This document shows positions 1-13,871 of a DNA stretch of 64,000 nt, in pieces. Under the pieces are notes generated by a model that had not been told where the DNA came from, searched no databases, and saw only the letters and a program-made list of their open reading frames with translations. Position 1 is the first letter of the stretch, and each line of letters starts with the position of its first letter. Source of the stretch: Oerskovia flava (GTDB taxonomy: Bacteria; Actinomycetota; Actinomycetes; Actinomycetales; Cellulomonadaceae). Both the position numbers and the translations under genes were made by a program. The stretch lies in contig NZ_JAOXSR010000002.1 of NCBI RefSeq assembly GCF_026163685.1, positions 1 through 64,000 on the forward strand, given 5' to 3'.

Positions 1-411
1 CACCCCACGCATGAAGCTCGCCTTCTACGGACGCGTCTCGACCGAGGACGCCCAGGACCCGCAAGCGTCGCGCGCTTGGCAGCTCAAGCGGTCGCGAGAC
101 CTGGTCAGTCCTCTCGACCATGAGATCGTCGCGGAGTTCTTCGACATCGGCCAGTCCCGGTCCCTCCCGTGGCGACGGCGCCCGCAAGCTGCAGCGCTGC
201 TCGAGGAGGTCAAGAGCGCGACCAGACGGTTTGACGGCATCGTGATCGGGGAGCCGCAGCGTGCGTTCTACGGCCACCAGTTCTCCATGACGTTCCCGGT
301 GCTGACCCACTATGGAGTGGCGTTGTTCGTGCCCGAGGTGGGGGGAGCGGTCGATCCGGACTCCGATGCGCACGAGATCGTCATGTCGCTGTTCGGTGGG
401 ATGTCCAAGAG
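1..411 (+). repeat. Left copy of a 411-bp perfect direct repeat (recombinase 5' end)
   Basis: Bases 1-411 are identical to 12134-12544 by direct reading; the first difference is at 412 (T versus C at 12545). The repeat contains the start and catalytic domain of a serine recombinase. It is already in progress at base 1, so its true left end is outside the window. Beyond 411 the two copies still encode homologous protein but differ at many positions, mostly synonymous at first and then at the amino-acid level. Confidence 0.95.
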
Positions 412-1051
412 TGAGCGCACTCGCATCCAGAAGCGCACGAAGTCCTCGATGCACGAGCTCGCCAGGAACACCGACCGGTTCCTGGGAGGCCGTCCTCCCT
501 ATGGGTACACGCTCGCCGACGTGGGGCCGCACCCCAACCCTGGGAAGGCGGCGGCCGGACAGCGCGCCCACAAGCTTGTGCCGGATGTGGGCGCAGCACC
601 GGTCGTTGCGCGGATCTTCGCCGAGTTCCTCGAAGGCCATGGCTTGCGCTCGATCGCGCAACGGCTCACCGACGAAGGCGTCCCGTCGCCGTCCGCTCAC
701 GACCCGTCACGCAACAGTCATCGCGACCCACGGGGGTGGGCGCACGCATCGGTACGGGCAATTCTCGTGAATCCTGCGTACACGGGCGTCCGGATGTGGG
801 GCAAACAGGCCAAGGTGGAGTCCCTGGCCGACGTCGACGATGTTGCGGGGCACATCGTCGCCCACGAGCTCATGCACATCCTCGAGGCGGTCTACGACCC
901 CGCGCAGGAGCGAACCACCGCCAGTCGCACGTCCTACGACGACCCGACCGAGCGGAGGGTCGAGCTCGTGGCGAGCGAGCTCATGATCCTGATCTCAGGT
1001 CGCAGCGGCGGCATCGGGACGAGCCTCGGGTCCTTGGAGGAGTACCGGTGA
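11..1051 (+). CDS. Chimeric ORF: serine recombinase N-terminal part fused to ImmA/IrrE-like HExxH peptidase tail
   Basis: Residues 1-140 are a resolvase/invertase catalytic domain with the nucleophile Ser10 in YGRVS. Residues 150-279 match the start of the Recombinase (PF07508) domain, ending in AKVESLADVDDVA. At about base 849 homology to the full-length recombinase at 12129 stops. The frame continues into a segment with HELMH (zinc-peptidase HExxH) and a later ERRVELVASEL that could supply the third ligand, as in ImmA/IrrE (DUF955) proteins. The recombinase zinc ribbon and coiled coil are absent, and so is the usual N-terminal part of an ImmA protein. The stop overlaps the GTG of the next gene by 4 nt, the coupling expected between an ImmA gene and its 7-TM partner. 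I therefore read this as a fusion created by deletion or recombination. An ATG 15 nt upstream, as used in the other copy, would fall outside the window. Activity of either half is unknown. Confidence 0.8.
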   Translation: MKLAFYGRVSTEDAQDPQASRAWQLKRSRDLVSPLDHEIVAEFFDIGQSRSLPWRRRPQAAALLEEVKSATRRFDGIVIGEPQRAFYGHQFSMTFPVLTHYGVALFVPEVGGAVDPDSDAHEIVMSLFGGMSKSERTRIQKRTKSSMHELARNTDRFLGGRPPYGYTLADVGPHPNPGKAAAGQRAHKLVPDVGAAPVVARIFAEFLEGHGLRSIAQRLTDEGVPSPSAHDPSRNSHRDPRGWAHASVRAILVNPAYTGVRMWGKQAKVESLADVDDVAGHIVAHELMHILEAVYDPAQERTTASRTSYDDPTERRVELVASELMILISGRSGGIGTSLGSLEEYR

Positions 1052-2151
1052 GCACCTCCCTGAGCGCGATCGCCCTCATCACGCTCGCCGTCGCGACGCT
1101 GTGGACCGCGTGGCGGTCGAGGGGCCGCGGCCCGCAGGCGTCCCTGCTGCCGCTGGGGCTCGCCTTGGTCTCGGCGGCCTCTGCGCTGCGCGTCCCGGGC
1201 CTGTACACCTGGGTGCAGGCGAGCTTGCCACCCGGGACGCACGAGGTCGCCAAGCACGTCCTCCTCGTCAGCGGATGCCTGGCGGTCGCAGCCTGGGTGC
1301 GCGGCTCCCTCACGTCCAGCGTCGTGAAGGCGAGGACCGTCGTCGTGCTGTGCGCGGTCATCGCGGCGAGCATGACCGCCGTCTTCGTCGCAAACGGGCC
1401 CTGGACCACTGACGACCTCGACGCGCAGATGGTCGACCGCCCGTGGATGGTCGCCTACTGGGCCCTGTACTACGGAACCTTCGTCCTGGCCGTTGGCGCC
1501 TTCGGCTGGTCTGCGTTCACCGCAGGGGCCGGGAAGCCGCTTCGACAGCGGTGGGGGCTGGACGTCGCGGCGCTCGGCGCGCTCGTCGCGGTCGCGTGGG
1601 CGATCATCAGCGTCATCGCGCTCGTGCTGCACGAGCCCGGGTCGCTCGAGCCATACCTCGTGCTCGGCATCCGCACGCGCTACCTGATCCTCGCCTCCAG
1701 CGTCCTGGCGCCGGTCGGGATCGTGGCTCACCTGGCGATCAGCGCGGGCGAACGTCGTCGCCGGCGACGCGACCTGGGGGACATGCACGCGCACCTGGTC
1801 GGGCTGAGCGACGAGGTTCGCCTGGACGGTGCGAGCTCGAAGGTGGTCGACTACCGGCGCCAGGTGGAGATCCTCGACGCGATCGCCGTGCTGCGCCGCT
1901 GCGCCGACGATCGCGACCGCGAGACGGTGCGCAACGTGATCCCGGACGCGAGCCCCGAGCTCGAGCTCGCCTACCGCCTGGACATCGCCGCGGCTCGTCG
2001 CGACGCCGGCGCCGCACCCGAGCAGCCCGCGACCGACGACTGGGGTGCGCTGGTCTCCGACGACACCAGCCTGGCTCGGCTCGGTCGGGTCTTCCGCGAC
2101 GAGGTGGATGAGGAGGCCCGGCGCGATGTCCTTGCCGCAGTCGACCACTGA
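1048..2151 (+). CDS. 7-TM membrane protein with cytoplasmic helical tail, DUF6545 / MAB_1171c-like
   Basis: The 367-residue protein has about seven hydrophobic segments in the first 235 residues (for example LITLAVATLW, HVLLVSGCLAVAAWV, VAWAIISVIALVL, LILASSVLAPVGIVAHLAI). An Arg-rich junction (GERRRRRRD) and a roughly 120-residue soluble acidic/helical tail follow. From memory this architecture, directly after an ImmA/IrrE peptidase gene, matches the actinobacterial 'MAB_1171c family putative transporter' (DUF6545) group, whose function is not established. The GTG start was chosen because it overlaps the preceding stop (GTGA); the reading frame open further upstream is out-of-frame recombinase DNA. 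The next gene starts inside its 3' end, so the two are co-translated. It is probably a membrane partner in a peptidase-sensor module. Confidence 0.7.
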   Translation: MSTSLSAIALITLAVATLWTAWRSRGRGPQASLLPLGLALVSAASALRVPGLYTWVQASLPPGTHEVAKHVLLVSGCLAVAAWVRGSLTSSVVKARTVVVLCAVIAASMTAVFVANGPWTTDDLDAQMVDRPWMVAYWALYYGTFVLAVGAFGWSAFTAGAGKPLRQRWGLDVAALGALVAVAWAIISVIALVLHEPGSLEPYLVLGIRTRYLILASSVLAPVGIVAHLAISAGERRRRRRDLGDMHAHLVGLSDEVRLDGASSKVVDYRRQVEILDAIAVLRRCADDRDRETVRNVIPDASPELELAYRLDIAAARRDAGAAPEQPATDDWGALVSDDTSLARLGRVFRDEVDEEARRDVLAAVDH

Positions 2152-2734
2152 TCAGGCGTCGGGGCCTCGCTGGGCCCGGGTCGTCACCGAGGTGCTGGCA
2201 CCTGGGTACACCGTGGCGGCGACGATCGTGGTCGTGTGCCTGCTGACGTTGGATCTGCCTGCTCAGTGGTGGATCGCCGTGCTGGCGTTCGTAGGCATGG
2301 CCGGACTGCCGTACGCGTTCGTGCACGGGCTCGCGCGGGCGAAGGTGTGGGAGTCACGTCACGTGCGGCCGCGCGGGCAGCGCATGGTCGTGCTCGCCGG
2401 CCTCATCGTGATCGAGGGCCTGTCTCTGTGGGTGCTGGGCCTGGCCGGTGCGCCGGCCGCGGCGATGCGGGTGCTCGGCGCGTGCGTCCTCGGTGTGGTC
2501 GCGATGGCGCTGGTCACACCGGTTGTGCGGGCGTCGATCCACGTCGGGGTGTTCTCGGTCGGTGCCGGCGTGATGAGCGCGTTCTCCTGGCCGTGGGCCG
2601 TGGCGATCCTCGCGGTAGGCGCCCTGGTCGGCCTGGCGCGCCTCGCGGTGCGCGACCACACCCGCACCGAGGTCATCGCGGGCCTGCTCGTCGGGTTCAC
2701 GGCGGGCGCGCTGGCGGTCAGGGTTCTCGGCTGA
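2126..2734 (+). CDS. Degenerate PAP2-like integral membrane protein
   Basis: This 202-residue protein has five or six membrane helices. Near the C terminus it carries RDHTRTEVIAGLLVGF, which resembles the third PAP2 phosphatase motif (SRxxxxxHxxxDVxAG) but lacks the canonical Ser-Arg and Asp. A His in SIHVGVFSVGAG sits where motif 2 would be. The ATG start overlaps the last 26 nt of the upstream membrane gene. PAP2-type proteins are common third members of ImmA plus DUF6545 modules. The missing catalytic residues argue for a non-enzymatic or altered role, and it may only be PAP2-like by fold. Confidence 0.55.
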   Translation: MSLPQSTTDQASGPRWARVVTEVLAPGYTVAATIVVVCLLTLDLPAQWWIAVLAFVGMAGLPYAFVHGLARAKVWESRHVRPRGQRMVVLAGLIVIEGLSLWVLGLAGAPAAAMRVLGACVLGVVAMALVTPVVRASIHVGVFSVGAGVMSAFSWPWAVAILAVGALVGLARLAVRDHTRTEVIAGLLVGFTAGALAVRVLG

Positions 2735-12128: not shown

Positions 12129-13805
12129 ATGGACACCCCACGCATGAAGCTCGCCTTCTACGGACGCGTCTCGACCGAGGACGCCCAGGACCCGCAAGCG
12201 TCGCGCGCTTGGCAGCTCAAGCGGTCGCGAGACCTGGTCAGTCCTCTCGACCATGAGATCGTCGCGGAGTTCTTCGACATCGGCCAGTCCCGGTCCCTCC
12301 CGTGGCGACGGCGCCCGCAAGCTGCAGCGCTGCTCGAGGAGGTCAAGAGCGCGACCAGACGGTTTGACGGCATCGTGATCGGGGAGCCGCAGCGTGCGTT
12401 CTACGGCCACCAGTTCTCCATGACGTTCCCGGTGCTGACCCACTATGGAGTGGCGTTGTTCGTGCCCGAGGTGGGGGGAGCGGTCGATCCGGACTCCGAT
12501 GCGCACGAGATCGTCATGTCGCTGTTCGGTGGGATGTCCAAGAGCGAACGCACCCGCATCCAGAAGCGCACGAAGTCCTCGATGCACGAGCTCGCCAGGA
12601 ACACAGACCGATTCCTCGGAGGGCGGCCACCGTACGGCTACCGCCTCGCGGACGTCGGGCCGCACCCGAACCCAGCGAAGGCTGCCGCTGGTCAGCGCGC
12701 GCACCGACTGATCGCAGACGAGACGACCGCATCGAATGTTCGTCTGATCTTCGAGCTCTACGCGACCGGTGACCATGGCTTGAACGCGATCGCGCAGCGT
12801 CTCACCGATGAGGGCATCGCTTCCCCGTCAGCGTCCGACCCGGCGCGCAACCGGCACCGGGACCCGCGGGGTTGGTCGGCCGCCTCCGTGCGGGCGATCC
12901 TCAAGAACCCGACCTACACGGGCTTCCGGGTCTGGGGGAAGCAGGAGAAGGTCGAGACCCTGGCCGATGTCGAGGACGTCGCGGCTGGCAGTGTGACGCG
13001 GATGCGCTGGAGGGAGGGCGCTGAGTGGGTGCGCCCGGAGCAGCGCACACATGAAGCGATCGTTGATCCGGAGCTCTTCGAGGCCGTGGCGCACCGCTTC
13101 GCCGCAAGGGCGCCGTCCTCAATCCGGGCGACGCGCCGTTCGACACGTCCGTACCCGCTCGCGGGGTTGGTCCTGTGCGGCCACTGTGGCCGGCGAATGC
13201 AGGGCATGTGGGTTCCGAACCGGAAGGCCGGCACAGGCCGGACGCTCTACCGCTGTGAGATCGGCAAGTCACGCGCAATCTCCGCGGAGCTCGCAGATCA
13301 CCCGCGGTCGGTGCACCTGAACCAGGCGCACGTGCTGCCACAGCTCGACAGAGAGCTCGGCGCGCTGCTGAGCGACCAGGGCCGACTCCGGGCCGCGGTG
13401 GCGAGGCCCGTGACCGGGTCGGCAGAACTCGGAGCCATCCGTACCAAGATCTCCGAGACACAGAAGGTGATCGACAACCTCGTCGAAGCCATCGGGCGTG
13501 GACTGATCTCCGACGCCGTCACAGCGCAACTGGCAGCGATGGAGTCGGAGAAGAAGCTGCTGGAGCTACGTGTGAGCAAGATCGCGGGCGCCGAGCCGAG
13601 AGGCGTCGCCCAGGAGATCGACGCGGCACTGGTTCGCTTCGCCGGGATCGCAGATGCTCTCGCACTCGCGACAGACGAGGAGCGCGGACAGCTCTACCGT
13701 GCCCTGGACCTGCAGCTGACGTACGACTCAACGACGAAGCGGGCCCAGGTGACCCTGGACCCGCTTGGCGCGTGTATAGAAAAGAGTGTCCGGAGGGGGA
13801 CTTGA
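12129..13805 (+). CDS. Large serine recombinase (site-specific integrase)
   Basis: 558 residues. The resolvase catalytic domain has nucleophile Ser15 (YGRVSTED) and downstream Arg-rich motifs (GGMSKSERTRIQKRTKSSM). Then come the Recombinase domain (GGRPPYGYRLADVGP, GLNAIAQRLTDEG, WSAASVRAILKNPTYTG), a zinc ribbon (LCGHCGRRMQGMW and a later YRCEIG), and a C-terminal helical/coiled-coil region. It would catalyse integration and excision of the surrounding element through a Ser-DNA intermediate. The stop codon lies inside the 3' end of the opposite-strand tRNA-Leu, so the last few codons derive from tRNA sequence. Start ATG 12129 is 3 nt after the small upstream gene; a second in-frame ATG is at 12144. 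The first 411 nt (from 12134) are identical to the left end of the window. Confidence 0.92.
   Translation: MDTPRMKLAFYGRVSTEDAQDPQASRAWQLKRSRDLVSPLDHEIVAEFFDIGQSRSLPWRRRPQAAALLEEVKSATRRFDGIVIGEPQRAFYGHQFSMTFPVLTHYGVALFVPEVGGAVDPDSDAHEIVMSLFGGMSKSERTRIQKRTKSSMHELARNTDRFLGGRPPYGYRLADVGPHPNPAKAAAGQRAHRLIADETTASNVRLIFELYATGDHGLNAIAQRLTDEGIASPSASDPARNRHRDPRGWSAASVRAILKNPTYTGFRVWGKQEKVETLADVEDVAAGSVTRMRWREGAEWVRPEQRTHEAIVDPELFEAVAHRFAARAPSSIRATRRSTRPYPLAGLVLCGHCGRRMQGMWVPNRKAGTGRTLYRCEIGKSRAISAELADHPRSVHLNQAHVLPQLDRELGALLSDQGRLRAAVARPVTGSAELGAIRTKISETQKVIDNLVEAIGRGLISDAVTAQLAAMESEKKLLELRVSKIAGAEPRGVAQEIDAALVRFAGIADALALATDEERGQLYRALDLQLTYDSTTKRAQVTLDPLGACIEKSVRRGT
12134..12544 (+). repeat. Right copy of the 411-bp perfect direct repeat
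   Basis: Identical to 1-411, same orientation, offset 12,133 bases. Homologous recombination between the copies would remove a 12,133-bp circle and leave one recombinase 5' end. The sharp end of identity inside two otherwise divergent genes is the pattern of a recent gene conversion or crossover. Confidence 0.95.
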
Positions 13806-13871
13806 ACCCCCACGCCCTAATACGGGCACTAGCACCTCAAGCTAGCGCGTCTGCCATTCCGCCACCCGGAC
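13787..13871 (-). tRNA. tRNA-Leu (anticodon GAG)
   Basis: Read on the minus strand, 5' GTCCGGG pairs with 3' CTCCGGAC to form the acceptor stem. The discriminator is A (13787), as leucine tRNAs require. The anticodon arm CUAGC-UUGAGGU-GCUAG gives anticodon GAG. A long variable arm (UGCCCGUAUUAGGGCGU) marks a class II tRNA, and the T arm contains GGUUCAAGU. CCA is not encoded. The 3' 19 nt overlap the last codons of the serine recombinase on the other strand, so this tRNA 3' end is the probable attachment site of the element. Confidence 0.97.

Follow-up and report, generated by a model that had tools for sequence, protein, structure and literature searches.

A chimeric serine recombinase-peptidase reading frame near tRNA-Leu(gag) in Oerskovia flava is probably a deletion scar

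The window analysed here is the first 64 kb (64,000 nucleotides) of contig C12 of the Oerskovia flava assembly, a genome of 4.1 Mb in 22 contigs. It opens with a chimeric open reading frame (ORF), and about 12 kb downstream lies an intact integrase gene that runs into a tRNA gene. The features are:

1 to 411, plus strand: copy 1 of a 411-bp perfect direct repeat, of which the first 127 nt are also found at the end of contig C6
11 to 1051, plus strand: chimeric ORF of 346 aa; a singleton among 222 same-family genomes
11 to 847, plus strand: 5′ part, encoding residues 1-279 of a large serine recombinase, which comprise the catalytic domain and the Recombinase domain up to two thirds of its length
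848 to 851, plus strand: junction of the two halves; no spanning repeat of at least 12 nt in the sequence examined
848 to 1051, plus strand: 3′ part, ImmA/IrrE-like peptidase, starting a few residues ahead of HELMH and running to the stop
1048 to 2151, plus strand: MAB_1171c/DUF6545-like membrane protein gene, its start overlapping the ORF stop (GTGA); PF20182 E 4.5e-4 and NF042915 E 1e-22, both under the curated cut-offs
2127 to 2734, plus strand: PAP2-like gene, next in the operon, start uncertain; PF01569 E 6.5e-4, sub-threshold; 60% to the homologue in genome G036
12134 to 12544, plus strand: copy 2 of the direct repeat, identical to 1-411
12129 to 13805, plus strand: intact sister large serine integrase of 558 aa (PF00239, PF07508, PF13408)
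13786 to 13871, minus strand: tRNA-Leu(gag), presumed integration target, with the integrase stop codon inside it

The ORF at 11-1051 contains no internal stop and joins, in frame, the first 279 residues of a recombinase to the C-terminal ~66 residues of an ImmA/IrrE-like peptidase, with the junction at about 848-851. In profile searches, residues 1-279 matched PF00239 (E 4e-10) and the recombinase part matched positions 4-68 of the 102 of PF07508 (E 1e-17). The tail matched PF06114 over positions 46-87 with 16.2 bits, under the curated Peptidase_M78 cut-off of 22 bits. At the junction, GC3 shifts from 0.81 to 0.93, a change from the level of the sister integrase to that of the DUF6545 gene. 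The initial annotation had described an in-frame fusion of recombinase residues 1-279 to a peptidase tail with its stop coupled to a DUF6545-like gene. That description was correct, since the frame is open, the recombinase matches are present and the tail gives a partial, sub-cut-off IrrE/ImmA match; the coupled gene matches PF20182 and NF042915, both below cut-off. The reading frame is without decay and may still be translated. Translation may instead begin 15 nt before the ATG at position 11 (ATG GGC ACC CCA CGC ATG), which would extend the frame into contig C6.

The tail was also searched separately. In G036, an intact protein of 133 aa with a DUF6545 gene next downstream aligns with the tail through its residues 69-133, at 62% identity over 66 residues. 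Such intact proteins occur in 20 same-family genomes, and every one of them begins to match the chimera at residue 277-280 of the latter. The ImmA/IrrE character proposed for the tail was thus confirmed, and because of these matches it is independent of the weak PF06114 score. The tail keeps HELMH and a downstream glutamate (RVELVAS), the HExxH-plus-E signature of ImmA/IrrE (M78). The N-terminal helices and sheet of a complete M78 domain are missing, as ~68 N-terminal residues are absent. Among the intact relatives scanned, one passes the Pfam cut-off (22.8 bits) and the others fall below it. A fold search with a model of an intact relative gave no significant PDB match, so the M78 assignment of the intact protein rests on sequence. 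A known type is an ImmA/IrrE (M78) metallopeptidase encoded beside an XRE repressor, as in ImmR/ImmA of ICEBs1. The likeness to that type consists of the HELMH motif with its downstream glutamate and of a weakly Cro/C1-like gene directly upstream of the peptidase gene in at least one relative; the differences are that the chimera has the C-terminal half only and that the intact relatives mostly stay under the Pfam cut-off. Peptidase residues 1-68 were not found elsewhere in this genome, nor was an XRE partner of the operon, in a search run without a positive control.

The GTGA overlap of stop and start is seen in most of the relatives examined. PADLOC called nothing for the fusion or its operon, and a literature search on recombinase-IrrE fusions and DUF6545 returned nothing useful. 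In G036 (L025:4375-6063), the DUF6545 and PAP2 parts are joined as one 562-aa ORF; this single ORF suggests that the two proteins work together.

The recombinase half retains the N-terminal resolvase-type catalytic domain (PF00239) with the catalytic serine motif GRVSTED. A large serine integrase has a complete Recombinase domain and a zinc ribbon, and both are complete in the sister. In the chimera, however, PF07508 ends at position 68 of 102 and PF13408 is absent, which leaves the Recombinase domain without its last third and the protein without a zinc ribbon. The missing parts are those that bind attachment sites. None of 52 family-invariant residues, counted outside the 411-bp repeat, is altered; residues 1-137 were left out because the repeat makes them identical to the sister gene and therefore uninformative. 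Outside the repeat, the two recombinases share 77% protein identity and roughly 60-85% DNA identity, and we therefore regard them as separate genes of a single family. Elsewhere in this genome, no 3′ half of a second recombinase was found. The closest plasmid match comes from Mycolicibacterium (65% identity).

Structure prediction with AF2 did not yield a fold for the tail. From residue 261 to the end of the fusion model, pLDDT was about 24-61, whereas the model of an intact peptidase relative reached a mean of 78.5 and places two helices and three strands within the part missing from the chimera. All alignments were shallow. The fusion tail was covered by five relatives, about as many as the intact control, so alignment depth alone does not explain the gap. 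In the Foldseek search, the significant matches of the fusion model were serine recombinases only.

A second protein with both halves was sought as the initial annotation had suggested. None was present in the 99 relatives searched first, in the 222 same-family genomes searched next, in phage, plasmid and viral collections, or in genome contigs including those of two close relatives. A match in G235 over residues 249-333, which apparently crossed the junction, proved on alignment to be an intact peptidase. With no other case among the 222, the fusion does not recur as a protein family would.

These results bear on the proposal that the chimera works, with the recombinase head dimerising or contacting DNA and presenting the peptidase tail to a repressor. 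The frame is stop-free, key residues of both halves are kept and the coupling to the downstream gene is preserved, as such a protein would require. Nevertheless, both domains are cut inside their folds: the head stops two thirds of the way through the Recombinase domain and has no zinc ribbon, and the tail lacks its N-terminal half and is not predicted to fold. The fusion is moreover absent from every relative searched, and the XRE partner was missing from the genome in the uncontrolled search mentioned above. We consider a working chimera of this kind extremely improbable, and the idea of a recombinase head guiding a peptidase found no support.

The family of the sister integrase is located at tRNA-Leu(gag) in five genomes, counting this one. 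The four others are three same-family genomes and one Acidimicrobiia assembly; loci L028, L029 and L054 are arranged alike, and in L030 integrase and tRNA are adjacent. In four of the five located members, the integrase stop codon lies within the tRNA. This habit argues against another origin, in which an attP inside the recombinase gene recombined with the ImmA gene and left the fusion as an att junction. Site-specific insertion would account for a clean junction within both genes, but the assembly holds no reciprocal junction of ImmA 5′ half and recombinase 3′ half, and we consider it very unlikely.

Two further observations concern this family. In G123 (L055:7090-8699), an integrase relative is split across two frames and is probably a pseudogene. 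In G018 (L063:8018-9144), two tRNA-Leu(gag) genes lie 1 kb apart and possibly mark a past integration.

A survey reported a group of serine recombinases, from Mycobacterium AICEs, with one tRNA-Leu gene as their integration site, called such targeting by serine recombinases rare, and described tandem AICEs at one tRNA gene (Ghinet et al. 2011, PMC3218068). The recombinases of this locus resemble those tRNA-Leu-integrated actinobacterial enzymes in target and phylum, and are likened to them on these grounds; unlike them, the fused copy ends as a recombinase at residue 279 and has no tra gene near it. No conjugation gene was found near the fusion, and neither contig C6 nor C12 gave a PF01580 match. 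As the TraB/FtsK-type transfer gene of an AICE is absent from the surroundings, an AICE is not demonstrated. The likeness to tandem integrative elements is that a pair of related recombinase genes, oriented alike, precedes one tRNA. The difference is that the tRNA is the only element end visible here; any att junction between the elements would have been lost in the deletion. A search for a left-hand att site found none, and a 22-nt pattern of the tRNA end occurs only once in the genome. Between the two recombinase genes, the island segment 4932-11652 carries a divergent DnaE-type polymerase, SSB, an HNH protein (weak REase_II match) and RNase H.

The position of the ORF at a contig end raises the question of whether the assembler joined the two halves. 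Contig C12 starts at the perfect repeat and shares a k-mer-like overlap of 127 nt with the end of C6. The assembler therefore had trouble here; the pairing of repeat copies with flanks is ambiguous, and a circle of 12,133 bp is formally possible. The order C6 to C12 is backed by synteny with G007, where homologues of the C6 genes precede tRNA-Leu and an AI-2E-family gene. The repeat, however, ends ~440 nt before the junction at about 849, which falls in unique sequence, and no repeat of at least 12 nt spans the junction in the window or in the 55 kb of C6 examined. For these reasons the 411-bp repeat does not explain the junction. Neither lost half is present elsewhere in the genome, which also speaks against an artefact, and we regard one as quite unlikely. 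From the sequences, the 411-bp identity suggests a separate, recent exchange between the two recombinases. The repeat copies are 12,133 bp apart, and recombination between them would loop out the segment, joining C6 to the intact integrase and tRNA-Leu.

Both halves are cut inside folded domains and the fusion is found in no relative; therefore an ordinary scar is most likely. Of the two alternatives offered initially, the scar gained ground from the truncated halves, the singleton status and the sister integrase and tRNA 12 kb away, and the guided peptidase lost it. We conclude that the ORF, with its junction as assembled, is probably a scar left by a deletion between two related, stacked elements at tRNA-Leu. 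Two elements, each with a tRNA-Leu-targeting actinobacterial serine integrase, would have been stacked at tRNA-Leu(gag). A deletion would then have taken the 3′ half of the upstream integrase gene and the intervening DNA including the internal att junction, together with the start of the ImmA-DUF6545-PAP2 operon, namely its first ~68 codons and any regulator upstream. Codon 279 of the recombinase would thereby have been joined to codon ~69 of the peptidase, in frame by chance. The second recombinase, the common orientation and the tRNA support this course of events. The tandem-element model is not demonstrated, since no left-hand att site was found; the ancestral arrangement is not visible either.

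A scar could also have formed by another route, for example if a recombinase fragment became attached to an ImmA operon already resident in the chromosome, or if several events followed one another. At least two genera of the family include species with the ImmA-DUF6545 operon, which may therefore have been resident, but its flanks here differ from those in relatives. This route is unlikely, although nothing in the analysis cleanly separates it from the deletion between stacked elements. The retention of all 52 invariant residues and of the tail's HELMH and glutamate, that is, the lack of decay so far, counts against a scar. Such retention fits a recent event as well as selection, and a single copy cannot separate the two.

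Under the deletion model, the product, if made, would combine a catalytic domain without a complete att-binding part with a metal-site helix pair without its sheet. It is probably neither an integrase nor a peptidase, with both activities presumably lost. The one residual effect that seems plausible is on the coupled DUF6545 gene, which translation of the ORF would still feed, now from the upstream signals of the recombinase. A gained function of an expressed chimera, for instance as a dominant-negative partner of the sister integrase through the intact catalytic and dimerising head, is highly improbable; if true, it would control excision of the neighbouring element. As a scar, the ORF matters little beyond annotation: automatic pipelines risk labelling it a recombinase or an ImmA protein, and both labels are probably wrong. 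It also points to a tRNA-Leu(gag) island in which serine-integrase genes have accumulated, at a target rarely reported for serine recombinases.
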